Source: Flavobacterium inviolabile (GTDB taxonomy: Bacteria > Bacteroidota > Bacteroidia > Flavobacteriales > Flavobacteriaceae). Taken from it: a stretch of DNA of 64,000 nt. The stretch lies in NCBI RefSeq assembly GCF_013389455.1, contig NZ_CP058278.1, positions 1,860,001 through 1,924,000 of the forward strand. The letters run 5' to 3'. The translations under genes were made by a program, and so were the position numbers. Below are positions 3,294 to 20,094 of this stretch, in pieces (within the stretch, counting starts at the first letter, position 1; each line of letters begins with the position of its first letter). A model generated the notes under the pieces. That model saw only the letters and a program-made list of their open reading frames with translations. It was not told the DNA's origin and did no database searches.

Positions 3294-4412
3294 TCATGGA
3301 CAGTTGGGATTTAAAGAGTTTATCCATTGCTCTATCATTTGTACACCTTCTTCGTGTACAATTGTTCTTCCGAGAAGCGGCATTCTGTTTGCTTCGTCTG
3401 TAGAATTCATTCTGAAATGTAACATGGAACGTTGGAAACTTCCTCTGGTTACAATATGGGTAAGCGAATTGTCGATATATTCCTGAGGGGAAACACAAAT
3501 ACCCAGATTTACGGGATTACCGGTTTCGCTGAATGCAAAGCGCATCGGGCGGTAATCGCAATGGCTGTTTTCGGCATGACAATGCGCGCAGTTAATATCA
3601 ATATAGGAGCGTACTCTCAGTTCCAAAGGTTTGGAAGTATCCTGCCAGTTTACCGTACTGGCAATATTGGATGGGTATCCGGATTGCAGCATACCGTTTT
3701 CCATCCATTTGGTGAGCTGGTTTTTGGCGCCGTCCGTATAGTTGTAGGTAATATTCAGGTTTTGTGGTTTCGGACCAATCGGAATTGCTTTTTCATTCTT
3801 TTTATGACAGGTCAGGCATTCCGTTGCGGAAGGTATTCTGTAGTTGGTCGATTTTGTTACATTGTTTTCTTTCCAGGTGAGTGGTTTATAGCTGCCGTTC
3901 ATATCCAGTGTTGCTTCCGTCTGGTTTTCATTCCAGATATAATTGGCAAAGATCCAGATGTCATTGCCGCTGCCGTCAACTCCTTTTTTAACCATCAAAC
4001 GGGTTTCGATAATCCGGGTGTCATTGGACGGCTGTACATTGTCGTAGTAAAAAGTTTTAACCAGTGCTGTTCCCACCGGAAATTTAAGGACTTTACCGTC
4101 GCCGTCATAAACGGCTTTGGTGCCTTCGGGCATCCATACAAAACGTTTTTTATGGGCATAATCGGTAAACAGCCCGCTGGCAATTTCATAAGGCAGCACC
4201 CGGGCATTGGGTGTGTTATTTTTTAAAATACCGGTAAAGAAATGGTAGTCCGATAATTTTTGATAGGGAATCTGATTGAGATCCAGGGAGACCGGAGTAG
4301 TGGTTGGAGTGGGCGTAATCGTTTCATATTCGTCACTGTCGGACTGACAGGAGAATAAGGTGAAAACCCCCAGAAATGCAATAATTGTAAGGGATAAGTA
4401 GCTTTTCTTCAT
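3294..4412 (-). CDS. Diheme c-type cytochrome lipoprotein (SO2930-like)
   Basis: 372 residues from the ATG at 4412. The frame can be extended five codons to a TTG at 4427, but the ATG gives a clean lipoprotein signal (MKKSYLSL, lipobox cysteine C22 in LFSC). Two CxxCH heme c attachment motifs are visible, CLTCH at 199-203 and CAHCH at 275-279. Length, order of motifs and surrounding sequence fit the SO2930-type diheme cytochrome family, whose electron partners are not established. The protein is probably anchored in the periplasm or at the outer membrane. It lies 32 bp upstream of the FG-GAP protein gene on the same strand, so both may form one unit. Confidence 0.8.
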   Translation of the reverse strand: MKKSYLSLTIIAFLGVFTLFSCQSDSDEYETITPTPTTTPVSLDLNQIPYQKLSDYHFFTGILKNNTPNARVLPYEIASGLFTDYAHKKRFVWMPEGTKAVYDGDGKVLKFPVGTALVKTFYYDNVQPSNDTRIIETRLMVKKGVDGSGNDIWIFANYIWNENQTEATLDMNGSYKPLTWKENNVTKSTNYRIPSATECLTCHKKNEKAIPIGPKPQNLNITYNYTDGAKNQLTKWMENGMLQSGYPSNIASTVNWQDTSKPLELRVRSYIDINCAHCHAENSHCDYRPMRFAFSETGNPVNLGICVSPQEYIDNSLTHIVTRGSFQRSMLHFRMNSTDEANRMPLLGRTIVHEEGVQMIEQWINSLNPNCP

Positions 4413-6442: not shown

Positions 6443-6499
6443 CGTATAATTAAAATTTGCGTGTTATGTAAAAATAGGAATTTGTTTTTATTGAATAAT

Positions 6500-6597
6500 A
6501 AAAAAAAGAAAGTCCCACCGAAGCAGGACTAAAGGTTTTCACCTACGGCATATAGCCTTATTGTGATAAGATTAAAGATTAGAATAATTTTTTCACA
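6500..6597 (-). ncRNA. tracrRNA: tracrRNA of the type II-C CRISPR-Cas9 system
   Basis: Read on the minus strand from about 6597. An anti-repeat at 6563-6587 pairs with the first 25 nt of the CRISPR repeat: a 15-bp perfect helix, a 2-nt internal mismatch, then 8 pairs including G-U wobbles. Then come a short nexus-type hairpin (GGC, 5-nt loop, GCC; 6547-6557), a GAAA-loop hairpin (AGGT/ACCT) and a terminator hairpin (AGTCC...GGACT, 6511-6530) followed by a run of T. This order matches known tracrRNAs. It is divergent from cas9. The 5' end is inferred from the -7 box at 6601-6608; processing sites are not known. Confidence 0.85.
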
Positions 6598-6600
6598 TTT

Positions 6601-6608
6601 CAAATGTA
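6601..6608 (-). promoter_or_regulatory. Putative -7 promoter element of the tracrRNA
   Basis: Minus-strand TACATTTG matches the Bacteroidota -7 consensus TAnnTTTG and lies just upstream of the anti-repeat. No convincing -33 TTG element is seen at the usual spacing, so the promoter is only partly supported. Confidence 0.5.
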
Positions 6609-6700
6609 ATAAAAAAATGCTTGACTTTTATTATGGAAATCCGTAAACAAACAATACTAATTTTTTAGTAGCTTTAAAATTCTTAAAATTTTAGAATGTC

Positions 6701-9700
6701 ATGACGAAAATATTAGGATTAGATTTAGGAACAAACAGTATCGGCTGGGCGGTTGTGGATAAGGATGGAAATGATTTTACTTTATTGGATAAAGGTGTCA
6801 GAATATTTTCTGAAGGAGTGAAATCAGAAAAAGGTGTAGAGAGTTCCCGCGCTGCAGAACGCACCGGTTATAGAAGTGCCAGAAAAATTAAATACCGCAG
6901 GAAATTAAGAAAATATGAAACTCTTAAAGTGCTTTCTGTAAACGGAATGTGCCCGTTGACTGTTGAAGAAGTGGATGAATGGAAAAAATCAGGGTTTAAA
7001 ACATATCCGCTTAATCCGGAATTTTTAAAATGGTTGCGTACCAATGAAGATGAAAATATAAATCCGTATGTTTTTAGGGATAAGGCAAGTAAGCAAAAAG
7101 TTCCTTTATATGAATTTGGAAGAGCGCTGTATCATATAGCGCAAAGACGCGGTTTTTTGAGTAATCGATTGGATCAATCGGCAGAAGGGATAATGGAAGA
7201 GCATTGTCCGGTTATTCAGACAGCGATTGAAGATCTGAATACTATAGATGAAATGAAAACGGAATTAAAAGACTATTTTTTTAATACAGGAATCCTTGAT
7301 GAAAGTATAAAAGGTGGCTTTAAAAAAGATTTAGATGAAGGGGAAACTAAATTAAAATCGCTTTACAATGCCCTAATTGGCATTGTGAAAAAGAATGAAA
7401 ATGATATTGCTAAAGCAAAAGATGAAGTTATTGCCCGTTTAAACAGGAAAGAGGATTTAGGAGCTGTTAAGCGAGTGATTGGGGAAATCTCCCAAGCAAT
7501 GAAAGATGGCAACTTTGCTACTCTTGGACAATATTTTTTTAGTTTATATAGTAAAGATAAGATAAGAAATAAATATACGGCGAGAGAAGAACACTATTTA
7601 AAAGAATTTGAAATACTGTGTAAAATACAAGGAATTGACGGGATTGATGAAAAAGAACAATTGCCAGAAAAAAGATATTTTGGATTGGCTAAGGAATTAT
7701 ACAAAGCGATTTTTTTTCAACGACCTTTAAAATCTCAAAAAGGATTGATTGGAAAATGTTCTTTTGAAAAAAGTAAGTCCCGTTGTGCTATTTCTCATCC
7801 TGATTTTGAGGAATACAGAATGTGGACTTATTTGAATACCATTAAGTACGGAACACAATCAGAGAAAACCCTGCGTTTTTTATCACAGGATGAAAAAATG
7901 AGTTTAGTATCTAAATTTTTTAGAAAAAAAGACAATTTCAATTTTGAAGATTTAGCTAAGGAATTAATCCCGAAAGGCACTACATTCGGATTTTATAAAT
8001 CTTCTAATAAGAACGAGTTTCATTATTGGTTCAACTACAAACCAACAGATACGGTTACAGGTTGTCCGGTTTCGGCTTCCTTGAAAAATGTAATTGGTGA
8101 AAACTGGAAAACAAAGACTTTTACCTATGAAACATTAAATTCAAAAGCCGAGCGTGTGTCAAGGACTGTAGATTATAAAGATCTATGGCACTTGCTTTCA
8201 GTTTCGACTTCTGAGGTTTATTTGTATGAATATGCCAAGGACAAATTAGGTTTAGAAGATAAGGCTTCTAAGGCATTCAGCAGAATTCGGCTAAAAAAAG
8301 ATTTTGCAAGTTTGAGTTTAAATGCGATTAATAAAATTTTGCCTTATGTGAAAGAAGGTTTGTTATATTCTCATGCAGTATTTATGGCGAATATTGAGAA
8401 TATTGTAGATAAGGAAATCTGGGAGGATATCACTCAAAGAAAATATATTCAAGATAAAATCGCTTTAATTATTGAGAATCATATCTATGAAAATAGCTTG
8501 CTCGAAGTGGTAAATTCGTTGATAAAAGATTGTAAAACGGACAATTGTTATTATTCAAAAGAAGCGGAAACAACCTATAAGGATGATTTGAATAAAAAAC
8601 TTATAACGTTCTTTAAATACAATAAAATGGAGGACGCCGGTGAACAGCAATCGCTTTTGGATAAGCTCTTTCCAATCTTTATTGAACAATTGAAAGCGTA
8701 TGAATTTATAAAGATCAAGCGTCTGGATGAAAAAGTTTTTGAGTTTTTAAATGGCGAAAGCGAAGATGGACAAGTATTTTGTATGAATGAAAAACGTTTG
8801 AAAAAACTATACCATCCGTCTGATATTGAAGTTTTTAAAAAGAAAATTATTAAAGATGCATTTGGAAATGAGAAAATAGTTCTCGGTAGTCCATTAACTA
8901 CATCCATTAAGAATCCTATGGCAATGCGCGCGCTGCATCAATTGCGAAAGGTCTTGAATACCTTGATTTTTGAGGGGCAGATTGATGAAAAAACAAAAGT
9001 TCATATCGAAATGGCCCGTGAGTTAAACGATTCAAACAAACGAAAAGGAATTCAGGATTATCAAAACGAGAATAAGAAGAAAAGGGATGACGCAATCAAG
9101 GACATTAAGAAACTTTATTGGGAAGAATGTAAAAAAGAGATTGAACCCACGGATGATGATTTACTGCGTTATCAGCTCTGGCTGGAACAAAACAGGTCTG
9201 AGATATATGAAGAAGGCAGGAACATCAGTATTTGTGATATAATTGGAAATAATCCCAAATATGATATTGAACATACTATTCCAAGAAGTATCTCACAAGA
9301 TAATTCTCAGATGAATAAGACACTTTGCAGTCCAAAATTTAACAGAAATATCAAAGGGAATAAAATGCCGGTTGAATTAAGTAACTATTTAGAAATTCTG
9401 CCCAGAATAGCACATTGGAAAAAAGAAGCAGAAAATTTAAGCCGGGAAATTGAATTAATTACACGTTCCATAAAAGGAGTTGCAACTAAAGAAGCAAAAG
9501 ATAAAAAAATAAGAAGAAGACACTTTTTAACTTTAAAAAGAGATTATCTGAAAGGGAAATACGAGCGTTTCATTTGGGAAGAGCCGAAAGTAGGATTTAA
9601 GAACAGTCAAATTCCGGACACCGGAATCATCACCAAATACGCCCAGGCATATTTAAAATCGTATTTCAAAAGAGTGGAAAGTGTAAAAGGCGGCATGGTT

Positions 9701-11068
9701 GCTGAGTTTAGAAAAATTTGGGGAGTTCAGGAAAGTTATCATGAGAATGATAAAAAGTATTTTCTTGAAAAAGACAGGAGTAAGCACACCCACCACACTA
9801 TCGATGCGATAACGATAGCTTGTATGACTAAAGAAAAATACGATGTGTTGGCTACTGCCTGGACTTTGGAGGATAAGGAACAAATAAATGAAGCCCGAAA
9901 GTTATTGGCTGATTCAAAACCCTGGAAAACTTTTAAAGAAGATTTAAAAAAACTGGAAGAAGAAGTTTTAGTGTCACATCACACACCGGACAATGTTAAA
10001 AAACAATCTAAAAAGATTGTTCGGATTAGAGGGAAAAAGCAATATGTTGCAGAAACAGAAAAGGATGCTAATGGTAAAACAGTTGTAAAAAAAGATGTTA
10101 ACCAAAAGATAGTTTATAAGTTAGACGGAAAAGGTAATAAAATACCAAGATTGCAGCAAGGAGATACTATCCGGGGATCATTACATCAGGACAGTATTTA
10201 TGGTGCTATAAGAAATCCGTTAAATAATGAAGAAATCCGCTATGTAATTCGTAAAGATTTAGAAAGTATTAAAGCGACTGATCTGGAAAATATTGTTGAT
10301 GAGACAGTAAAAGAAAAAGTAAAAAAGGCTATTGAAAATAAGGTACTGTTAATTTCTTCAAATGCACAGCAAAAAAACAAGCTTAACGGAACGGTTTGGA
10401 TGAATGAAGAAAAAGGGATTGTAATAAAGAAAGTCAGAATATATGCTAATTCTGTAAAAAATCCTTTAGAGATAAAAGAGCATAGTCCATTGTCGAAATC
10501 GAAATATAAGCATAAACAAAAAGTTTATGGACAAAATGATGAGAACTATTGTATGGCTATTTATGAACTGGATGGGAAACGAGATTTTGAATTAATTAAT
10601 AATTTTAATTTAGCAAAATTGATAAAACAAGGTCAAGGTTATTATCCTTTATATAAAGAAAAAGAAATAAAAGGAAAAAAAGTACAAATTCCGGTTGCTA
10701 AAAGTAATAACAGAGATGTTATTTTGAAAAAAGGGCAACAAGTTGTTTTTTATGACAAAGAAGTGGAAAATCCCAAAGACATTACAGAAATAATTGATTT
10801 TAAAGATAGAGCCTATATTATTGAAGGATTGTCGATTAATAGAGTTAAATCCGGTAATAACTTTTACGAGTTTGGAGTTATTCAACTGAAATACTTTAAA
10901 GAAGCAAGAAAAGCTGATGATATAAAAAAAGATAATTTTAAACCAGATGGAGATTTTAAATTAACAGAATATAAACCAACAAGAAAAATGAGTCCGGGTC
11001 AATTTACAGCTTTTGTTGAAGGAATTGATTTTAAAGTTTTAACATCTGGTAAGTATAAGAAAATATGA
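6701..11068 (+). CDS. cas9: CRISPR-associated endonuclease Cas9, subtype II-C
   Basis: 1455 residues. RuvC-I is 'ILGLDLGTNSIGWAV' with D8. An arginine-rich bridge helix follows at about 53-72 (AAERTGYRSARK...). RuvC-II is 'VHIEMARELNDSN' with E770. The HNH motif is 'YDIEHTIPRS' around 853-862, and RuvC-III is 'HTHHTIDAI' around 1029-1036 with D1035. All catalytic positions look intact. A lysine-rich C-terminal part of about 400 residues should hold the PAM-interacting domain. It is an RNA-guided double-strand DNA nuclease using the crRNA:tracrRNA duplex encoded on either side. No csn2 or cas4 is present, hence II-C. It is at the large end of II-C proteins, as in other Bacteroidota. The coding sequence is visibly more A/T-rich than the flanking housekeeping genes. 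Confidence 0.97.
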   Translation: MTKILGLDLGTNSIGWAVVDKDGNDFTLLDKGVRIFSEGVKSEKGVESSRAAERTGYRSARKIKYRRKLRKYETLKVLSVNGMCPLTVEEVDEWKKSGFKTYPLNPEFLKWLRTNEDENINPYVFRDKASKQKVPLYEFGRALYHIAQRRGFLSNRLDQSAEGIMEEHCPVIQTAIEDLNTIDEMKTELKDYFFNTGILDESIKGGFKKDLDEGETKLKSLYNALIGIVKKNENDIAKAKDEVIARLNRKEDLGAVKRVIGEISQAMKDGNFATLGQYFFSLYSKDKIRNKYTAREEHYLKEFEILCKIQGIDGIDEKEQLPEKRYFGLAKELYKAIFFQRPLKSQKGLIGKCSFEKSKSRCAISHPDFEEYRMWTYLNTIKYGTQSEKTLRFLSQDEKMSLVSKFFRKKDNFNFEDLAKELIPKGTTFGFYKSSNKNEFHYWFNYKPTDTVTGCPVSASLKNVIGENWKTKTFTYETLNSKAERVSRTVDYKDLWHLLSVSTSEVYLYEYAKDKLGLEDKASKAFSRIRLKKDFASLSLNAINKILPYVKEGLLYSHAVFMANIENIVDKEIWEDITQRKYIQDKIALIIENHIYENSLLEVVNSLIKDCKTDNCYYSKEAETTYKDDLNKKLITFFKYNKMEDAGEQQSLLDKLFPIFIEQLKAYEFIKIKRLDEKVFEFLNGESEDGQVFCMNEKRLKKLYHPSDIEVFKKKIIKDAFGNEKIVLGSPLTTSIKNPMAMRALHQLRKVLNTLIFEGQIDEKTKVHIEMARELNDSNKRKGIQDYQNENKKKRDDAIKDIKKLYWEECKKEIEPTDDDLLRYQLWLEQNRSEIYEEGRNISICDIIGNNPKYDIEHTIPRSISQDNSQMNKTLCSPKFNRNIKGNKMPVELSNYLEILPRIAHWKKEAENLSREIELITRSIKGVATKEAKDKKIRRRHFLTLKRDYLKGKYERFIWEEPKVGFKNSQIPDTGIITKYAQAYLKSYFKRVESVKGGMVAEFRKIWGVQESYHENDKKYFLEKDRSKHTHHTIDAITIACMTKEKYDVLATAWTLEDKEQINEARKLLADSKPWKTFKEDLKKLEEEVLVSHHTPDNVKKQSKKIVRIRGKKQYVAETEKDANGKTVVKKDVNQKIVYKLDGKGNKIPRLQQGDTIRGSLHQDSIYGAIRNPLNNEEIRYVIRKDLESIKATDLENIVDETVKEKVKKAIENKVLLISSNAQQKNKLNGTVWMNEEKGIVIKKVRIYANSVKNPLEIKEHSPLSKSKYKHKQKVYGQNDENYCMAIYELDGKRDFELINNFNLAKLIKQGQGYYPLYKEKEIKGKKVQIPVAKSNNRDVILKKGQQVVFYDKEVENPKDITEIIDFKDRAYIIEGLSINRVKSGNNFYEFGVIQLKYFKEARKADDIKKDNFKPDGDFKLTEYKPTRKMSPGQFTAFVEGIDFKVLTSGKYKKI

Positions 11069-11139
11069 TTTTTTAGATTGTTTAATATAGGTTTTTATGA
11101 TTTTAAAATATCAAAATGATAATGAAAACTCATCCATTG

Positions 11140-13081
11140 ATTGTAAGATGGACAAAGATTAGAAAACACGATATTTACAGCATAGTACAGTATGTCAAAT
11201 TTGTTGTTGTGGTTTGATTAAAGATTAGAGAACACGATATTATGCTAGGTTAACCCACAACAAAATTCATGTTGTGGTTTGATTAAAGATTAGAAAGCAC
11301 GATATTGCTTTCAGTAACTTCATTATAATTGATGTGGTTGTGGTTTGATTAAAGATTAGAAAACACGATATTCTTAAAACTAAATGGTGACCTACAGCTT
11401 ATGTTGTGGTTTGATTAAAGATTAGAAAACACGATATTAATCGTAGAGAATGGGATATCAACTACGGCGTTGTGGTTTGATTAAAGATTAGAAAACACGA
11501 TATTGCCGAGATTTCAACACGACTATAATGATTAGTTGTGGTTTGATTAAAGATTAGAAAACACGATATTGTTGAACATCTTTTTTAACATCGACTATAG
11601 TTGTGGTTTGATTAAAGATTAGAAAACACGATATTCTTATTAAACAAGTATATATGGTCATACAAGTTGTGGTTTGATTAAAGATTAGAAAACACGATAT
11701 TGCGCTAATACAACTATATCTAATTCACATGTTGTGGTTTGATTAAAGATTAGAAAACACGATATTGTATAATAATTAACAGTTCATTACATCATGGTTG
11801 TGGTTTGATTAAAGATTAGAAAACACGATATTAATTGAAATGGTAATTAAAGATGTTTTAGGTTGTGGTTTGATTAAAGATTAGAAAACACGATATTAAC
11901 GCTGCTTTCATTTTGCCAAAAATCTTTGTTGTGGTTTGATTAAAGATTAGAAAACACGATATTATCTTTATTACTAAAGATCACGGACACGGGTTGTGGT
12001 TTGATTAAAGATTAGAAAACACGATATTAGAAGCAGCCAGCAAAGTGCAAGGAATTGCGTTGTGGTTTGATTAAAGATTAGAAAACACGATATTAGATGG
12101 TTCGTTAACATATATCTTAAAATAGTTGTGGTTTGATTAAAGATTAGAAAACACGATATTCCTCGAAACACAATATGACTATAAGATAAGGTTGTGGTTT
12201 GATTAAAGATTAGAAAACACGATATTAGATGGTTCGTTAACATATATTCTGAAGTAGTTGTGGTTTGATTAAAGATTAGAAAACACGATATTCAGGTCAG
12301 ACGTTACCAGACCCTGAATTATGTTGTGGTTTGATTAAAGATTAGAAAACACGATATTTCAACCTTTCGTGCAGAAAATGCGTGAAATGTTGTGGTTTGA
12401 TTAAAGATTAGAAAACACGATATTCAGTAGTGTTGGATTGTATATATTCAAGGGGTTGTGGTTTGATTAAAGATTAGAAAACACGATATTCATAGGAAGT
12501 AAAATACTAGGTAACGACATGTTGTGGTTTGATTAAAGATTAGAAAACACGATATTACTAGCATACTTCGATGCGTATAAAAACTAGTTGTGGTTTGATT
12601 AAAGATTAGAAAACACGATATTCAGGGGACGGAAAGATAAAAACAGTACGAAGTTGTGGTTTGATTAAAGATTAGAAAACACGATATTTAGCACAAGCTA
12701 CAGAAACAACAAGTGTGAGTTGTGGTTTGATTAAAGATTAGAAAACACGATATTCACCATTATATAATGGTGTGACGGTTAGTAGTTGTGGTTTGATTAA
12801 AGATTAGAAAACACGATATTCGAACGAGCAAAAAAAGCTAAAAAAGAAGGTTGTGGTTTGATTAAAGATTAGAAAACACGATATTTGGTATATCACCAGT
12901 AGCATTCTCGGAAGGTTGTGGTTTGATTAAAGATTAGAAAACACGATATTTTGCCACTCTAAACCTAGACGCTCGAATAGTTGTGGTTTGATTAAAGATT
13001 AGAAAACACGATATTCGGAATGCCACTGACAGCAAAAATGCTGGAGTTGTGGTTTGATTAAAGATTAGAAAACACGATATT
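11140..13081 (+). CRISPR. Type II-C CRISPR array, 30 repeats and 29 spacers
   Basis: The repeat is 36 nt (starts GTTGTGGTTTGATTAA, ends AACACGATATT). Full repeats begin at 11206, 11271, 11337, 11403 and so on to 13046-13081. The first unit (11140-11175) is degenerate: 8 mismatches, all in its first 14 nt, with the last 22 nt perfect. Repeats at 11206 and 11271 carry one A-to-G change each; the others are identical. Of the spacers, 21 are 30 nt and 8 are 29 nt. Pairing with the tracrRNA anti-repeat shows that the guide strand is plus, the same direction as cas9. Decay at the cas9-proximal end suggests that end is oldest and that new spacers enter on the cas2 side. Confidence 0.98.
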
Positions 13082-13133
13082 AGTTGCGTTTTTAGCTTCT
13101 GATTATTAAGTGTTTAAAAGTAAATATCGTGAT
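13082..13133. other. Array flank on the cas2 side, possible leader
   Basis: A short AT-rich stretch between the last repeat and the shared terminator. AATATCGTG at 13123-13131 is the exact reverse complement of the last 9 nt of the repeat (13073-13081). The intact state of the repeats here and decay at the other end make this the probable spacer-integration side. Confidence 0.4.
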
Positions 13134-13183
13134 AAAAAATGCTTCTTTTTTAGAGTGATAAGCTAAGCTTGAAGCATTTTTTT
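13134..13183. terminator. Shared terminator between array and cas2
   Basis: Stem AAAATGCTTC/GAAGCATTTT with A-tract on one side and T-tract on the other, and a loop of about 25 nt that itself holds an AAGC/GCTT repeat. It can end both array transcription (plus) and cas1-cas2 transcription (minus). Confidence 0.65.
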
Positions 13184-13193
13184 ATTTCTAAGG

Positions 13194-13499
13194 TTAAAAC
13201 AATTCCAGTTGTGTGGGTTGCGGCGCTTTGGGGACTTCTGCTTTACCCCAGAAATTAATGATATTTCCAAACTGTTTGTCGGTGATCCTTAAAACACTCA
13301 CTTTTCCTAAAGGCGGCAGCAGCTTATAAATCCGTTTTTCATGAACATCAGCACTTTCACTACTTGCACAATGCCGTATGTAAACAGAATACTGCATCAT
13401 CGAAAAACCGTCCTTTAACAGGCTGTTTCGAAAACCGGAAGCATTTTTCCGGTCTTTTCTGGTATCAGTTGGTAAATCAAAAAATACAAACAGCCACAT
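13194..13499 (-). CDS. cas2: CRISPR-associated endoribonuclease Cas2
   Basis: The start is placed at the ATG at 13499-13497, which overlaps the cas1 stop by one base (TAATG), a typical coupled start. The 101-residue product then begins MWLFVFFDLPTD, the normal Cas2 N-terminus with conserved D8. A longer frame reaches 13565 but would overlap cas1 by 67 bp and add residues foreign to the family. Cas2 forms the dimeric core of the Cas1-Cas2 integrase. The C-terminus (QPTQLELF) is typical of II-C Cas2. The gene is convergent with the array. Confidence 0.93.
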   Translation of the reverse strand: MWLFVFFDLPTDTRKDRKNASGFRNSLLKDGFSMMQYSVYIRHCASSESADVHEKRIYKLLPPLGKVSVLRITDKQFGNIINFWGKAEVPKAPQPTQLELF

Positions 13500-14398
13500 T
13501 ACTCGGTATCCGTTAAGTTCCATAACGAAGGATATTTGATCTTTTTGCGGCTTCCTGTAAAACATTGCTGCAGTGAACTTGCCGTTTTTTGCAAACCCAC
13601 CATCAGCGGACTTTTTTCCTCTTTAAAATAAACCGTTCGGGTTAACACCTGCAGGAGTTCCGACTTTATTAGCGTATTTAATTCCTCTTCATCATATTGC
13701 TGTATGACTTGATAAACCAGCTCATCTACAGCCGGGCGAAAAGGCTCCATGATATCATCGGCAAGTGCAAAAGCATTGTATTTGCTTTTATGATGAATGC
13801 CCAAAGTGTTCAGCAGGCCGCTTCCGGATAAAGCCCTGGCAGTAGCGGCTCTTAATATGGCGTAGCCGTAGTTAAAAAAGTTATTCGGATATTCGCCAAA
13901 ACGTTCCCTTTTAAAACTGTGCTCAAAAAAGGACTTCCAGTATTGCGATGCTGCGACACCTTCCATATTGCTGGAATCGCCGCTGAGTACCTTACCGGCC
14001 AAAAACGGAAACGTATTTTTTTGCCTGGTGATTTTTTCCAGAAGTAATCCCTGATTCTTAATTTTCTCGACAACGGTTTGCTGCCATAATTGCTTTTTTA
14101 GCGGTAAAGAAGCCTCAATCTGGTTTCGGAATATTTCCTGTTGGATATGATGGCTGTTAAGATTCAGAAACATCCCGTTGGGCAGATGACTTTTGCCGCA
14201 AACAATAATCGCAGTATTATTTTCGATAAGCAGGTTCATGGCAGGAATGCTTAAATAAACCTCGGGATTATCAATAACAAGAAAACCGATATCTTCAACA
14301 GGAATAAAACTTTCCCGGATCTCGGATTGTAAAACCAGCTGGAGATTTTTTGTAGTAATACGGGTTTTGTTTTCTACAAGAACGGTACGTTTAATCAT
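13499..14398 (-). CDS. cas1: CRISPR-associated integrase Cas1, type II
   Basis: 299 residues with the Cas1 metal-binding triad: E146 (in NMEGVAASQYW), H203 (in LGIHHKSKYNAF) and E218 (in DDIMEPFRP). Spacing matches type II Cas1. It inserts new spacers together with Cas2, into which it is translationally coupled. Both are on minus while cas9 and the array are on plus, so the adaptation genes have their own promoter upstream of 14398, where two inverted repeats lie. No csn2 or cas4 is linked. Confidence 0.95.
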   Translation of the reverse strand: MIKRTVLVENKTRITTKNLQLVLQSEIRESFIPVEDIGFLVIDNPEVYLSIPAMNLLIENNTAIIVCGKSHLPNGMFLNLNSHHIQQEIFRNQIEASLPLKKQLWQQTVVEKIKNQGLLLEKITRQKNTFPFLAGKVLSGDSSNMEGVAASQYWKSFFEHSFKRERFGEYPNNFFNYGYAILRAATARALSGSGLLNTLGIHHKSKYNAFALADDIMEPFRPAVDELVYQVIQQYDEEELNTLIKSELLQVLTRTVYFKEEKSPLMVGLQKTASSLQQCFTGSRKKIKYPSLWNLTDTE

Positions 14399-14502: not shown

Positions 14503-14859
14503 TTACCGTTCTTTCTTCAGCAAAGCAATCAGTTCATCTTTTTCCTGCAGCCGTTTTTCATACTGCTCGATCAGTTTTTTATAAACGTCATTCAAGGCTT
14601 TAATACTATCCAGGATAATCTCCTTATCTTTTCTTTTTTTAGGATCGGTTCCGTTTTTCTGTTTGGCTAAAAAGCTTTTGGGTTTCACTTCAAAAATCAA
14701 ACTCAACTGTTCGATATGGGAAGCCCACGACTGACTTTCACCATTTTCAATACGGGCATAGGCAGATTGCGATATACTGAGTTTTTCGGCTACTTCTTCC
14801 TGCGAAAAGCCTTTTAATTTTCTCATATGGCGAATTTTTTCCCCGACTGTTCTGTTCAT
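14503..14859 (-). CDS. XRE family helix-turn-helix transcriptional regulator
   Basis: 118 residues. A Cro/C1-type HTH occupies about 5-60 ('IRHMRKLKGFSQEEVAEKLSISQSAYARIE'). A charged linker and a C-terminal coiled coil (about 80-118, ending LLKKER) probably dimerise. It is a small DNA-binding regulator with no visible ligand domain. It is on the same strand as cas1-cas2, 104 bp upstream of cas1, and divergent from the lanthipeptide precursors. It could control either cluster or only itself. The shared AAGG/CCTT inverted repeats on both sides make local regulation plausible but unproven. Confidence 0.88.
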   Translation of the reverse strand: MNRTVGEKIRHMRKLKGFSQEEVAEKLSISQSAYARIENGESQSWASHIEQLSLIFEVKPKSFLAKQKNGTDPKKRKDKEIILDSIKALNDVYKKLIEQYEKRLQEKDELIALLKKER

Positions 14860-14934: not shown

Positions 14935-15044
14935 AAATCGCATAAGAGAGTGCTTTTTAAGTCGTTAAATTTGGAATTATTAAGGCTTATTTCAGAAAAG
15001 GAAACACAAATTAGAACAATAATAATTATTCAAAATGTACCATT

Positions 15045-15260
15045 ATGAAGAAACTTAATCTTAAGAAAAAAATTGTTTCCGTATTAACGGATAAAGAAAA
15101 AGCAACCATCCAGGGTGGTGGAACAAACGTAACCTGTGCCAGCTTTGCAACAGAAATAAGATGGACCGAAGACCCTTGTGTAGTACCGCCGCCGCCAACA
15201 AAAAGATGTCCGAATGACGGGATCACACCGCCAACCAGCGATCCGATATTCGTGCCTTAA
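15045..15260 (+). CDS. Class I lanthipeptide precursor 1
   Basis: 71 residues. The leader begins MKKLNLKKKIVSVLTD and ends in a double-glycine cleavage site (IQGG at about 22-25). It fits the Bacteroidota class I leader pattern (LxLKK...L...E...IxGG). The core holds Thr/Ser and three Cys (TCAS..., DPCV, KRCP), so up to three (methyl)lanthionine rings are possible, with a proline-rich tail. The adjacent lanB/lanC genes support modification by glutamylation, dehydration and cyclisation. Product structure and activity cannot be read from sequence. It is nearly identical to precursor 2 through the leader and first 16 core residues. Confidence 0.85.
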   Translation: MKKLNLKKKIVSVLTDKEKATIQGGGTNVTCASFATEIRWTEDPCVVPPPPTKRCPNDGITPPTSDPIFVP

Positions 15261-15290
15261 AACTACCGTAACCAATCAAACTATTATACA

Positions 15291-15518
15291 ATGAAACGAT
15301 TAAACCTAAAAAAGAAAGTGGTTTCCGTATTAACGGATAAAGAAAAAGCAAACATTCAGGGTGGAGGAACAAACGAAACCTGTGCGAGCTTTGCAACAGA
15401 GATAAGATGGACAGAACAGCCTTGTGGTGTACCTGTTACCAGATTAGAGTGCCCAAGTATTAAAGTGGCTTGTGTAACACATTTAGTGTGCCCTACAACT
15501 ACTCTTGAAGAGATGTAG
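15291..15518 (+). CDS. Class I lanthipeptide precursor 2
   Basis: 75 residues. The leader is almost the same as precursor 1 (MKRLNLKKKVVSVLTD..., IQGG), followed by a core with five Cys and many Thr/Ser. The first core part (GTN.TCASFATEIRWTE.PC) is shared with precursor 1; the C-terminal half is different (LECPSIKVACVTHLVCP). This looks like a tandem duplication followed by divergence of the core tail, which is usual in lanthipeptide families. It lies 30 bp after precursor 1 and before a hairpin that should partly stop transcription ahead of lanC. Confidence 0.85.
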   Translation: MKRLNLKKKVVSVLTDKEKANIQGGGTNETCASFATEIRWTEQPCGVPVTRLECPSIKVACVTHLVCPTTTLEEM

Positions 15519-15662
15519 TAAACAGACAAAATAAAATAGCAGTAATGTATTTTACTATAATCTTTTAAAGATCGCAGTACAGGTGTTGAACCAAAAGAGA
15601 AGATTGTTCTCTTCTGTCCAAACCGGTTAAAAATACAATTACTTCATAATGAACGCTATTTT

Positions 15663-15697
15663 AAACCGTTGAAGAGTTGCTGTTCTTCAACGGTTTT
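15663..15697 (+). terminator. Attenuating terminator between precursors and lanC
   Basis: A perfect 13-bp stem AAACCGTTGAAGA/TCTTCAACGGTTT with an 8-nt loop and short T-rich tail. In this position it probably reduces read-through, so precursor mRNA exceeds enzyme mRNA. Confidence 0.7.
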
Positions 15698-15728
15698 GTA
15701 TTTAAATAAATAATCTCACAACACCACT

Positions 15729-16946
15729 ATGGAACTGGAAGGCTATAAAGAACTAAAAGAAATTACCGACTACTTACAAAATCCGGAACAGGTTTTTAAA
15801 GAAGAAAAAGCCGCCAATATTGCATTGCATTCCGGTTTGTCAGGTGTTATCATAACATTGGTAAACATCCGTAAAAAATTCCCGGAACTGGTTGATCCGG
15901 ATATCATTCGGCAATATATCGCCAAAACCTACGATATCCTTTCCGAAAGTGAAGCCTTCTATCCGTCATTTTGCGGTGGTCTTGCCGGATATGCCTATCT
16001 GCTGCACCTGCTCAAAGAAGAACAGATCCTGGAAGGCGACTACAGTGAGGTACTCGCTGAAATTGATGAAATCCTTGACGAACATTTTGAAATAAACCTC
16101 GAAGAAGAAGATATCGACATCCTTCACGGTGCGATGGGACTTGGCTTGTATTTTATAGAAACGGGCAAAAAACAACAGGTTGAAGCATTGATCGACAGAC
16201 TTGCGGGGATAGCCCAAAGAGAAGGCGATCAGTGTTATTGGAAAACATTCGATCACTATAAAACCCGGAAATACAAAATTGATTTCGGACTGGCACACGG
16301 CAACGCCGGAGTACAATATTTTCTGGGAAAATGCATTTACCACAACATTAAAGCCGATGCCTGTAAAGAGCTGCTCGAAGCCAGCCTTAATTTTTACAAA
16401 AACAACATCCAGGACCACAATGCGATACAATCGTATTTTCCGGTACACATACCGGAAGAAAACTATCTCGATAAAACCTACGCGCCCGAAACATCCCGAA
16501 TGGCCTGGTGTTACGGCGATTTAGGCATCTTATATACCCAATTGTTTGCAGCCGATATTATGGAAATGCCGGATTTAAAATTGGAAATAATCGGACAATT
16601 GAAGCAAACAGCCCAACGAAGAACCAAAGAAAACACAATGCACAACGATGCCGGATTTTGCCATGGCACCAGCGGACTGTCCATTATGTTTCAAAACATA
16701 TACCAGCTGACGAAAGAACCTGAATTTCTGGAAACAGCCCAATACTGGCTGCAACAAACGCATGCTTATAAAAACAGCACGGCAACCTATGATGTGGTTG
16801 CCTACAGACTATTTGAAGGAAGCCGGAAAAATGAGATTGATGTTACACTGCTGGAAGGAATTTCCGGTGTGGCAGCGGCCTATCTGGCCAATCTTAGAAC
16901 CGGAGGAACAACCTTATTGGACAAAACACTATTCTTAAGGTATTAA
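15729..16946 (+). CDS. lanC: Lanthionine synthetase C family cyclase
   Basis: 405 residues with the LanC (alpha,alpha)6-barrel pattern of repeated GxxG turns ('HSGLSGV', 'FCGGLAGYAY', 'LHGAMGLGLY', 'GLAHGNAGV', 'CYGDLGILY', 'CHGTSGL', 'LEGISGVAAAYL'). The zinc ligands are C261 (AWCYGD), C311 and H312 (FCHGTSG), and the likely active-site H190 lies in GLAHG. It catalyses Michael addition of Cys thiols to dehydrated Ser/Thr in the two precursors. It is followed after 14 bp by lanB, so the three enzyme genes form one operon. Confidence 0.93.
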   Translation: MELEGYKELKEITDYLQNPEQVFKEEKAANIALHSGLSGVIITLVNIRKKFPELVDPDIIRQYIAKTYDILSESEAFYPSFCGGLAGYAYLLHLLKEEQILEGDYSEVLAEIDEILDEHFEINLEEEDIDILHGAMGLGLYFIETGKKQQVEALIDRLAGIAQREGDQCYWKTFDHYKTRKYKIDFGLAHGNAGVQYFLGKCIYHNIKADACKELLEASLNFYKNNIQDHNAIQSYFPVHIPEENYLDKTYAPETSRMAWCYGDLGILYTQLFAADIMEMPDLKLEIIGQLKQTAQRRTKENTMHNDAGFCHGTSGLSIMFQNIYQLTKEPEFLETAQYWLQQTHAYKNSTATYDVVAYRLFEGSRKNEIDVTLLEGISGVAAAYLANLRTGGTTLLDKTLFLRY

Positions 16947-16960
16947 GCGATAACACCATT

Positions 16961-19186
16961 ATGAAAAAGAAGAACATACGCTATAACAGGTTTGATAAAT
17001 ATGTTTTGAGAACACCGTTAATGCCGGTCAATTTCCTGATGGAACTCACCCGGCAGGCAGATACTCCTGACGAAACAATACAGCAGCAGTTCCGGGATCC
17101 GGTAGTCCGGGAAGCCATCTTCCTGGCATCGCCGGTACTCTATAAGGAAATTGAAAAATGGACGGAAGGAAAAGTAGAAGACCCTAAAGAATGCAAAAAA
17201 ATAAAGCTTTCCTTCCTGAAATATTTAACCCGGATGGCATTCCGTCCGACACCTTTCGGACTTTTTGCCGGTTGTAAACTGGGAAGTATTACAGAAAATA
17301 CCCGTATTGAAAACAGTGATTTCTCTAAAAACAAGCGTCATACAAGGCTGGATATGAATTTTGTAGGAGCTTTAAACCAATCCCTTACCGCGAATAAGAA
17401 TATTCGGGAACAGCTGCAGTATTATCCCAATTCGAGCCTTTATTTTATTGGGAATAACATCCGTTATGTGGAATGTATCTACCAGAATACAAATCGTTCG
17501 CATCATCTTATCGAAATAGAAACCTCCGATTACCTGAACGACTGCCTGCAACTGGCCAAAAACGGTGCCGATAAAGCGGCATTGGTAAAGTTGCTGGCAA
17601 AAGAAGACATCACTGTGGAGGAAGCAGCCGGATTTGTAGATGACTTAATTGACAATCAGATCCTGGTTAGTGAAATGGAACTTTCCGTTTCCGGCGAAGA
17701 ATTCATCCGGCAGACCATCAAAACGTTAAAAAGACTAAAGGACACGGAAAACCTTATTGCCATTCTGGAAGAAACGGCACAAAAAATAGCGGCACTGGAT
17801 CATTCCATTGGAAATGATCCGAAGGAATATGAAGCGCTGCTGGCAATACTGAAAAAATTTGACATTCCGTTTGATGAAAAATACATCTTTCAAACCGACA
17901 TGATTCTCAATACCAGCCATAACACACTGGGAGAAGCCACTACTGCACAGCTTCAAAAAGGAATTGCGCTGTTAAACAGAATGACCTCGCGCATGCCCAA
18001 TCTGCAGCTGCAAAAATTTATAGACAAATTTCAGGAACGCTATGAAGACCGGGAGGTGCCGCTTGCTTTGGCACTTGATAACGAACTCGGTATCGGCTAT
18101 CCGGTAAACAGCTATAAAGGCAACCTGAATCCGTTGTTAAACAAAATATACATTCCTTCCGGCCAGCAGACCAACCGGCAGCGGGAAATGAAATGGTCGG
18201 CAGTAGACAGTATTCTTTTTGGTAAAATGAGAACGGCTCAAGCCAATAAAGAATATACCATTCAGCTACAGGATGAAGATTTTAGCAGCTTTGAGCCAAT
18301 ATGGGACGATTTACCGGATACGATTTCGTCCATGACAGAAATTGTAACCAGTGGTGACGAACAGAAAATTGTCATTAAAACGGTTGGTGGTTCCGGTGCG
18401 GCCAATTTGTTCGGCAGGTTCTGTCTGGGCGATCAGGAGCTTCATGAATATGCCAAAACAATCATCGAAAAAGAAGAGGCGCTAAACAGCGATAAATTAC
18501 TGCCCGAAATCATACACCTTCCGGAAAACAGAGTAGGGAATGTGCTGATGCGCCCTGCCTTCCGGAAATTTGAAATACCGTATCTGGCTTCTTCCGGAAA
18601 AACGGCAGACCATCAGCTCCCGATTGAAGATCTGGTTGTTTCCATAAGGGATAACACTGTTGTACTCCGTTCGCTGAAACACAATAAAGAAATCATTCCC
18701 CGTTTAACCAACGCCCATAATTACTCCCATAACGCCTTGCCTATTTATCACTTTTTGTGTGATTTACAGGCGCAGGGAAAAAGAGGCGGTTTGTACTTTA
18801 CCTGGGGAGGACTGCGTGATGAATATCCTTTTCTGCCAAGGGTCGAATATGAAAACATCATCCTTTCCAGAGCCAAATGGAAAATAACCCATAAAGAAGT
18901 GGAAAAACTGTTAGCCATCGATGCGGTATCGGAGATCGGTACCATTACCGAATGGCGCAATGAAAGGAATATTCCGCAATATGCCATTTTGGTGGAAGGC
19001 GACAACAAGCTGCTGATCAATTTTGAAAACCTGACCTCTTTTCAGATGCTTGCCACGGCAGTAGCGAAAAGAAACGTTTTTGAAATAGAAGAATTCCTGT
19101 TTTTTGAAGATGCCGTGACCAGAGGCAGTAAAGAGGACTATTTTGCAAACGAGGTGGTCTTTTCATTTTATAAAGAATTAAATTAA
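16961..19186 (+). CDS. lanB: Lantibiotic dehydratase, glutamylation domain (split LanB)
   Basis: 741 residues with class I LanB N-terminal features: 'RTPLMPVNFL' near 17-26, the family signature 'RPTPFGLFAG' at 95-104, and 'FLPRVEYENIILSRAKW' near 625-641. This part glutamylates precursor Ser/Thr using glutamyl-tRNA. The elimination domain present at the C-terminus of NisB-type enzymes is not here but is encoded by the next gene, which makes this a split LanB as in pinensin-type clusters of Bacteroidota. Precursor leader recognition should lie in this protein. Confidence 0.9.
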   Translation: MKKKNIRYNRFDKYVLRTPLMPVNFLMELTRQADTPDETIQQQFRDPVVREAIFLASPVLYKEIEKWTEGKVEDPKECKKIKLSFLKYLTRMAFRPTPFGLFAGCKLGSITENTRIENSDFSKNKRHTRLDMNFVGALNQSLTANKNIREQLQYYPNSSLYFIGNNIRYVECIYQNTNRSHHLIEIETSDYLNDCLQLAKNGADKAALVKLLAKEDITVEEAAGFVDDLIDNQILVSEMELSVSGEEFIRQTIKTLKRLKDTENLIAILEETAQKIAALDHSIGNDPKEYEALLAILKKFDIPFDEKYIFQTDMILNTSHNTLGEATTAQLQKGIALLNRMTSRMPNLQLQKFIDKFQERYEDREVPLALALDNELGIGYPVNSYKGNLNPLLNKIYIPSGQQTNRQREMKWSAVDSILFGKMRTAQANKEYTIQLQDEDFSSFEPIWDDLPDTISSMTEIVTSGDEQKIVIKTVGGSGAANLFGRFCLGDQELHEYAKTIIEKEEALNSDKLLPEIIHLPENRVGNVLMRPAFRKFEIPYLASSGKTADHQLPIEDLVVSIRDNTVVLRSLKHNKEIIPRLTNAHNYSHNALPIYHFLCDLQAQGKRGGLYFTWGGLRDEYPFLPRVEYENIILSRAKWKITHKEVEKLLAIDAVSEIGTITEWRNERNIPQYAILVEGDNKLLINFENLTSFQMLATAVAKRNVFEIEEFLFFEDAVTRGSKEDYFANEVVFSFYKELN

Positions 19187-19197
19187 AAGAAGTGAAT

Positions 19198-20094
19198 ATG
19201 GATACGACTATAAAACAATCATTTCTTATTGGTGACGAATGGCTGTACTATAAAATATATACCGGCTTTTCCACGACCGACACTATTCTGACCCATCATC
19301 TTCATGCGGTCATTACCGGTTTGCAGGAGGAAGGAATACTCGATAAATGGTTTTTTATCCGCTATACCGATCCGGACCATCACATTCGGCTGCGGGTGCA
19401 TTTGGTCAATACGGAACAGCTGGGAAAAGTAATGCTTGCCTTTCAGGAATGCCTGCGCAATTTATGGGAACAGAACAGCATCTGGAAACTGCAGACGGAT
19501 ACCTACAGCAGGGAGATGAAACGTTACGGAGCTACGCTGATAACGGAAGCCGAAACAATTTTTTTTCACGACAGCCATTGTATCACGGCCGTTTTAACTG
19601 TTTTGGAAGAACCGGAAAGTGAAAATACCAGGTGGATTTTCGGAATGGCTTCCATTGATACTTTTTTAGATACTTTCGGTTATCCGATCCATGAAAAACG
19701 GGCAGTAATGGAAAGCCTGAGAGAAGGTTTTTTTAAAGAGTTTAAAGTGGATACGCCTACTAAAAAAGGCTTGAGCGCCAAATACAGGGAACACAAAAAT
19801 GAGATTGCTGCTTTTATGAAAACCGAAACCGGCGCACTAAAACAGCTGTTAACGGAAAGGAATACCCGATTAGCAGAACCGGTAGTAGCCATTCGGGAAA
19901 AAATACACCACAGCGGTAAAACGCTGAATGATTTGCTGGGCAGTTATATCCACATGAACATGAACCGTTTGTTCCCGTCCAATAACCGCCAATGTGAAAT
20001 GATCATCTATGACCTGCTTTGCAGCTACTATACCACTGAAATGGCAATTGCCAAAAAACAGCAGCTCCAAAAGGAAGCGGCTGCACCGGTATAG
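19198..20094 (+). CDS. Thiopeptide-type biosynthesis protein, LanB elimination domain (SpaB_C)
   Basis: 298 residues from the ATG at 19198; a GTG two codons earlier (19192) is equally possible. Motifs 'WFFIRYTDPDHHIRLRV' (about 59-75) and 'DTYSREMKRYG' (about 103-113) are those of SpaB_C proteins, which eliminate glutamate from glutamylated Ser/Thr to form dehydroamino acids. It works with the 741-residue LanB encoded 11 bp upstream. It is the last gene of the cluster; no transporter, protease or immunity gene follows. Confidence 0.9.
   Translation: MDTTIKQSFLIGDEWLYYKIYTGFSTTDTILTHHLHAVITGLQEEGILDKWFFIRYTDPDHHIRLRVHLVNTEQLGKVMLAFQECLRNLWEQNSIWKLQTDTYSREMKRYGATLITEAETIFFHDSHCITAVLTVLEEPESENTRWIFGMASIDTFLDTFGYPIHEKRAVMESLREGFFKEFKVDTPTKKGLSAKYREHKNEIAAFMKTETGALKQLLTERNTRLAEPVVAIREKIHHSGKTLNDLLGSYIHMNMNRLFPSNNRQCEMIIYDLLCSYYTTEMAIAKKQQLQKEAAAPV

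Follow-up and report, generated by a model that had tools for sequence, protein, structure and literature searches.

Paired spacers in a type II-C CRISPR array of Flavobacterium inviolabile probably record two alleles of one protospacer

How does one CRISPR array come to hold two spacers of the same length that differ at just four bases? The question is raised by a 64,000-nucleotide window (the whole stretch of DNA analysed here) from Flavobacterium inviolabile, whose genome is one contig of 3.9 Mb. Judged by the models behind the class assignment (cas9, cas1 and cas2), bases 6499-14398 are an ordinary type II-C-like locus, in the order probable tracrRNA, cas9, array, cas2 and cas1, of which the probable tracrRNA, cas2 and cas1 are on the minus strand. 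Cas9 (6701..11068, plus strand, 1455 aa) scores 403 bits with TIGR01865 (cut-off 100) and is 67-80% identical to the seven named relatives found, while cas2 (13194..13565) scores 62.5 bits with TIGR01573 (cut-off 24.5) and cas1 (13499..14398) scores 289 bits with the type II model cas1_NMENI, TIGR03639 (cut-off 120). The probable tracrRNA (6499..6584, minus strand) combines a candidate anti-repeat of 24 nt upstream of cas9 (6561-6584), proposed by local alignment of the CRISPR repeat to this region, with a terminator-like hairpin (6511-6530) that was read by eye and is followed by a T run. The array itself (11140..13081, plus strand) comprises 30 repeats of 36 nt and 29 spacers of 29-30 nt, and a second terminator-like hairpin, also read by eye, lies between its right end and cas2 (13138..13186, plus strand).

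The two spacers in question are spacer 15 (12095..12124, plus strand) and spacer 17 (12227..12256, plus strand), both of 30 nt and in the same register (offset 0). They differ by transitions at positions 22 (C/T), 23 (T/C), 25 (A/G) and 28 (A/G), that is, 3, 6, 8 and 9 bases from the 3' end. Their identity of 26/30 in register compares with 10/12 for the array's next best pair by score, and among about 4.3 million spacer pairs between different arrays of the first survey set described below, at least 2 had six or fewer mismatches, a lower bound because the count used a word prefilter. The likeness of spacers 15 and 17 is thus far beyond chance.

Read from position 2, both spacers encode DGSLTYILK, and all four changes are silent in that frame; the initial annotation had given the letters, the positions and this reading correctly. 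Its statement that all four changes are silent holds for forward frame 2 but overlooked reverse-strand frame 1, which is open in both spacers (YFKIYVNEPS and YFRIYVNEPS) and in which one of the four changes is a K/R replacement while the other three fall at wobble sites. Positions 22, 25 and 28 are third codon positions whichever of the two frames is read, and silence is therefore true of one among several open frames. With six frames available, the chance that at least one open frame absorbs four random changes without altering an amino acid is 0.026 with uniform positions, 0.054 if they fall among the last nine bases, 0.061 for transitions at uniform positions and 0.13 for transitions among the last nine. 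By itself, the silence of spacers 15 and 17 counts as weak evidence (P 0.03-0.13).

We therefore turn to a survey of 135 distinct arrays with 4,014 spacers from Flavobacterium and its relatives. A first set holds 93 arrays and 2957 spacers, nearly all from Flavobacterium (one array is from Lacinutrix), and a second holds 42 arrays and 1057 spacers from other genera of the family. The Cas9 model TIGR01865 matched 149 of 398 genus genomes (129 over the cut-off) and 97 of 397 family genomes (83 over the cut-off), and the loci were taken among the matches listed for those 149 and 97 genomes. In all, 175 loci (115 + 60) were fetched, in addition to the 7 named ones and the window, and some had no detectable array. 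Duplicates (L022, L025 and L026) and arrays with repeats shorter than 34 nt (L085, one of L107 and one of L157) were dropped, whereas two odd stretches were kept, L189 (34-nt repeat, 2 spacers of 42) and L047 (2 spacers); in L121, L150 and L160 the repeat is seemingly one base too long, and these arrays are the source of no mismatched pair.

The survey also bears on the direction of growth. Read in crRNA orientation, first-set arrays with 36-nt repeats (n = 57) carry a degenerate repeat 5' in 16 cases and 3' in 1, and those with 46-51-nt repeats (n = 35) in 19 and 0, respectively; over the 92 arrays, the degenerate end is left in 35, right in 1 and neither in 56. In the window array the leftmost repeat is degenerate (8 mismatches), the second and third have 1 mismatch each and the others are perfect, and new spacers therefore probably enter on the right, the left being the trailer end. 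With the leader on the right, spacer 15 would be the older of the pair.

A pair was defined as two spacers of the same array with a common 3' end and at most 8 mismatches. By this definition there are 35 identical pairs and 28 distinct non-identical ones, 10 with a single mismatch and 18 with several, the window pair included (the L127 25/47 pair, which equals 25/50, was dropped). The first set supplies 26 of the non-identical pairs and the 42 arrays of the second set just 2, so replication rests on few cases.

Silence is pronounced among the multi-mismatch pairs, which is what alleles of coding genes should show. In their best frames the 18 pairs hold 12 amino-acid differences against 36.1 in simulation (sd 4.8; 0/2000 as low), and without the window pair the figures are 12 against 34.5 (0/1000 simulations). 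Fully silent pairs make up 6 of the 15 with three or more mismatches, where 0.65 were expected (0/2000), or 5 of 14 against 0.6 once the window is left out (0/1000). These others encode LRVYVNGVPT (L069, five changes), FKMQKELMDI (L127, four), PIETMVALF (L117, three), KIWKECFGIT (L106, three) and VFEEGIQNT (L040, three), the last two of which also have a silent reverse frame, while some same-register pairs are not silent (2 amino-acid differences in L049 5/45 and 3 in L024 9/20, best frame). The mismatches also follow a period of three, the major class holding 41 of 60 against 33.3 expected (P = 0.001), which holds without the window.

Along the spacer, the multi-mismatch changes number 28 in the last ten bases, 20 in the middle ten and 18 in the first ten. 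A mismatch in the last six bases occurs in 11 of the 17 first-set pairs of this class against 9.8 expected (P = 0.37), that is, with no 3'-end enrichment, and escape is therefore not shown for spacers 15 and 17. The mean spacing of the class is 13.7 units against 19.1 (P = 0.04). The window pair belongs to this diverged kind, with four changes, silent in one frame and all in the last nine bases.

Single-mismatch pairs behave differently with respect to position. In all ten the differing base is 2-6 positions from the 3' end (distances 2, 2, 3, 3, 3, 3, 4, 5, 5 and 6), a bias with P = 1e-7 if positions were uniform, the six-base cut having been chosen after the pairs were seen. Seven come from 36-nt-repeat arrays and three from 46-50-nt ones, one of the ten is from the second set, and the mean spacing is 10.5 against 15.2 (P = 0.09). 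Provided that the PAM follows the protospacer, as it does in F. columnare, these bases would lie in the PAM-proximal seed, and the class thus suggests escape. Identical pairs, at a mean spacing of 4.3 units against 14.5 expected (25 pairs, two block-duplicated arrays left out), look like local array duplications, apart from four in which one copy is longer at its 5' end. In these four (L041 18/21, L077 30/33, L095 20/22 and L127 47/50), a 29-nt and a 30-nt copy share the 3' end and are otherwise identical, which plain array duplication would not produce.

A further kind of pair is slipped, with 3' ends shifted by 1-4 bases on the same strand and one mismatch, which lies 18-27 bases from the 3' end (five rows, four independent cases: L064, L073, L118 and L074). 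A slipped spacer would have its PAM misplaced and may fail, and the host would therefore gain from a second, correct spacer, whatever the allele. Slipped and allelic pairs may thus obey one rule, by which a site is retaken when the first memory fails.

Several arrays showed other features. In L040 (array at 3556), four mismatched same-site pairs occur (9/34, 14/42, 20/39 and 26/27), two of which are single 3'-end changes. Spacers 4 and 38 of L042 (array at 11399) are exact reverse complements, in register, over 29 bases, which might mean that a single site was sampled on each strand or that one of the spacers went in inverted. Spacers 39 and 42 of L118 and spacer 13 of L046, from two genomes, both strands and two repeat classes, share the motif NKWGK[T/K]SI. 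Meanwhile, L145 (array at 3694) has 36-nt repeats and mixed spacer lengths, 27, 28 and 29 nt being commonest, whereas most other arrays have 29-30 nt.

Can silent differences between spacers lead to a real gene? Pairs between genomes provide a control. Three same-register pairs link different arrays, two fully silent and one with three amino-acid differences (L106 24 / L124 19). L032 8 and L036 1 silently share FKRIRVLKD; spacer 72 of L049 (array at 1007) and spacer 27 of L061 (array at 2205), from two genus genomes, share the codons YACLGGNRY with six silent differences. Of six peptide patterns taken to viral contigs, YACLGGNRY was the one that matched, its back-translation finding at least 120 stretches. 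Twelve contexts among the matches listed read LNLYACLGGNRYKW in one frame (one example spans 214 aa), and 41 residues of one such protein match PHROG 363 (phrog_363), DNA methyltransferase, at E = 4e-4. The match falls in the inferred frame, and thus silent spacer differences led to a real phage gene. When all spacers were compared with those at least 120 stretches, the closest full-length matches among those listed had 2 mismatches (L052 spacer 12 and L161 spacer 14), and no exact spacer match was among them. The target lies near the 5' end of the methyltransferase gene, and downstream of the site TAA stands at +6 to +8 in some copies and is absent in others.

The most probable explanation for spacers 15 and 17, and one we hold with some confidence, is that a type II-C CRISPR-Cas9 system took the same protospacer twice, from two diverged alleles of one coding gene of a mobile element or phage. 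Support for independent acquisition comes from the ensemble more than from the pair. Cas1-Cas2 would take a 30-base fragment adjoining a PAM, so that the array stores one allele; when the other, a fresh mutant or a long-diverged relative, is met later, a conserved PAM would let the same site be retaken. Beyond the spacer end of the source alleles we would expect such a PAM, e.g. NNNNNTAA, and a cut by Cas1-Cas2 at the same PAM both times would give the identical register. The differences left between the spacers would be those that purifying selection on the protein permits. Since they lie 3, 6, 8 and 9 bases from the presumed PAM-side end, spacer 15 probably guides Cas9 poorly to the spacer-17 allele, and retaking the site would benefit the host.

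The initial annotation had proposed independent acquisition from alleles of a coding gene, and this is the best explanation. Its observation is confirmed; its interpretation is largely right, but only partly supported, the pair alone being insufficient to prove it. It had also set array duplication aside. The alternative, in which spacer 15 and its neighbour were copied within the array and neutral point mutations then built up there, is indeed disfavoured by the class statistics, mismatched pairs being less local than identical ones, but the two spacers are only two units apart, as array duplications typically are, and identical pairs at short range are common and often in blocks (the 35 above). 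Neutral drift, however, gives no reason for class-wide silence, for the period of three or for single mismatches confined to the 3' end. Moreover, neither neighbouring spacer is duplicated, and the repeats flanking both spacers are perfect; with 4 changes in 30 spacer bases and 0 in the adjacent repeats, duplication would need a very uneven mutation rate, and we consider it improbable.

Very improbable, in our judgement, is an origin of the 3'-end single mismatches, and perhaps of part of the 15/17 differences, in PAM-side processing or fill-in errors at integration instead of phage alleles. All ten single mismatches do lie near the spacer's leader-facing end as modelled for F. columnare in the accessible part of PMC8092290, and the sole opposite-strand single-mismatch pair (L033 13/27) also has its mismatch close to that end, 4 bases from the 3' terminus of spacer 13. 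Such errors leave unexplained the silent, period-3 differences that the multi-mismatch class spreads across the whole spacer as well as the silence of spacers 15 and 17, and the mismatches of the slipped pairs lie far from that end. An extension of two-allele acquisition, by which type II-C adaptation would preferentially re-sample the protospacer where immunity has just failed, in a site-specific updating of memory, is doubtful. Cas9 might, for example, still bind or slowly cut the escaped target and supply Cas1-Cas2 with the PAM-anchored fragment a second time. Across these arrays, exact site reuse (28 non-identical pairs) exceeds overlaps shifted by at least 4 bases (4) or on the opposite strand (4), although neighbouring PAM sites should, on a rough estimate, be about as frequent. 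The scores used, however, detect shifted overlaps less readily. Intrinsic hot spots with ordinary selection could give the same picture.

If the two spacers do come from two alleles, on which strand did the gene lie? We regard the forward strand as the more probable, but the opposite one, with YF[K/R]IYVNEPS and a single conservative K/R replacement, deserves weighing even though it is unlikely. Besides being open in both spacers, the reverse frame finds a counterpart in spacer 18 of L093, from another genome, which reads AIRIYVNESA in the same frame and register and differs from spacer 17 only by silent codon changes over RIYVNE. That likeness is near the edge of chance, its score of 29 being reached by 1% of 3000 sampled spacer-frame queries with 8 queries made for the pair, and the reverse reading costs one amino-acid change where the forward one costs none. 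Of the 14 other pairs with at least three mismatches, 9 are best read forward and 2 in reverse, with 3 ties. In 199 genus genomes the reverse pattern gave two 2-mismatch matches outside its own array; both were rejected, the motif occurring there in no listed frame of at least 60 aa. As a side observation, among multi-mismatch pairs with a unique best frame in the 135 arrays, the gene mostly reads along the spacer strand (9 vs 2), although across the 30-nt spacers as a whole open frames do not clearly favour either strand.

The search that had been advised, of phages, plasmids (spacer 15 only), viral contigs and related genomes, yielded no accepted match for either spacer. The whole window array found no protospacer in 50,697 phage records (11 records with chance-level partial matches), and spacer 15 none in 72,556 plasmid records (7 records, partial matches covering 60-77% of the spacer). 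In viral contigs no match was found for the degenerate forward peptide DGSLTYILK, the reverse-strand peptide (neither pattern matching exactly), the 20-mer shared by the two spacers or the degenerate peptides of three other silent pairs. Nor did 397 family genomes contain a protospacer within 3 mismatches, or 398 genus genomes an accepted match to the degenerate pattern with one mismatch. Thirty-two spacers of the sister pairs, representing 25 of the 26 first-set pairs (the L024 pair was left out, and 18 pairs entered by one member only), likewise gave chance-level hits in 9 of the 50,697 phage records, and parts of the L040 and L073 arrays matched no phage; the relevant phages are therefore suggested to be under-sampled in the collections searched.

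Several candidates were rejected. Three matches from the 398 genus genomes, outside the window's own genome (L019-L021), are antisense to host-type genes, and of three viral matches to a relaxed pattern with PAM, the two inspected (L324 and L326) are out of frame in an ATPase-like gene, named by eye. Self-targeting was set aside, since nothing else in the own genome matches the degenerate pattern at up to 2 mismatches, as was, by argument, a diversity-generating retroelement at the source, which would favour non-silent change. All spacers against the fetched loci with arrays masked gave 4 matches of at least 40 bits; three were array units of L196 left unmasked, and the fourth was partial.

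The type II-C system of F. columnare is the closest in kind. According to the accessible parts of PMC5524643 and PMC8092290, it has a 36-bp repeat starting GTTGT, as in the window array, a crRNA transcribed from the conserved end and a downstream PAM, NNNNNTAAA. The same sources report phage protospacers that changed after a matching spacer had appeared (Laanto 2017, PMC5524643; Hoikkala 2021, PMC8092290), while one experiment with many new spacers found no phage mutations in that treatment (PMC9233685, in the part available). In the available text of PMC5524643 the four most specific protospacer changes are non-synonymous, whereas the window pair is silent in one frame; and unlike those data on protospacer change, the window evidence consists of two memories of one site in one array. 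We met no mention of same-site re-acquisition in the accessible F. columnare texts, and 'same protospacer' has 0 occurrences in that of PMC8092290.

Seed and PAM escape is already established in what we could consult of PMC6452269, where phage 2972 changes the seed or PAM of protospacers targeted by S. thermophilus, in an arms race between spacer gain and protospacer mutation, as is, in the accessible PMC5524643, protospacer change after spacer gain in F. columnare. The former is a phage-side experiment, whereas our survey concerns host arrays of natural genomes that hold both variants. In primed or cleavage-driven type II adaptation, as outlined in the available part of PMC8092290, new spacers cluster around an already targeted site, in contrast to the exact reuse of a protospacer from another allele proposed for the survey pairs. 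The nearest precedent is the type II-A system of Streptococcus agalactiae, in which 25 of 450 spacers are one or two nucleotides off another, mainly at the ends, largely by gain or loss of end bases, and point mutation is suggested (PMC4466440, in the part available to us). The survey pairs differ from these in lying within one array and a common register, with differences inside the 3' end or at silent sites. A literature search by title and the start of the abstract, with most subscription papers outside it, found no report of same-array, same-register spacer pairs with 3'-end-limited differences, which leaves novelty unproven.

While the locus is ordinary, the pair class that recurs across genomes is the finding worth keeping. 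Natural arrays usually record just an encounter with a phage; same-site pairs suggest, in addition, that the phage changed, that it was met again and where it changed. From arrays alone, without a phage genome, the survey picks out bases 2-6 from the 3' end as candidate seed positions, brings to light silent divergence between alleles and indicates the likely coding frame of phage genes. If the reading of two alleles is true, escape and renewed immunity in nature would be countable from genome data, and the peptides would be tags for finding the missing flavobacterial phages.

Beside the CRISPR locus, the window also holds a putative lanthipeptide-type cluster (15011-20094). Beyond cas1, the open reading frames at 14503-14859, 15729-16946 and 16961-19186 have below-cut-off matches to HTH regulators or lanthipeptide synthetases, or none; the protein at 15729-16946 matches the C-terminal part of lanthipeptide synthetases below the cut-off. 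Positions 16961-20094 encode what we take to be two dehydratase-like proteins, the first of which (16961-19186) has no NCBIfam match. The cluster includes two small precursor-like peptides in tandem, encoded by a direct repeat (15011-15187 and 15257-15433) of 79% identity.
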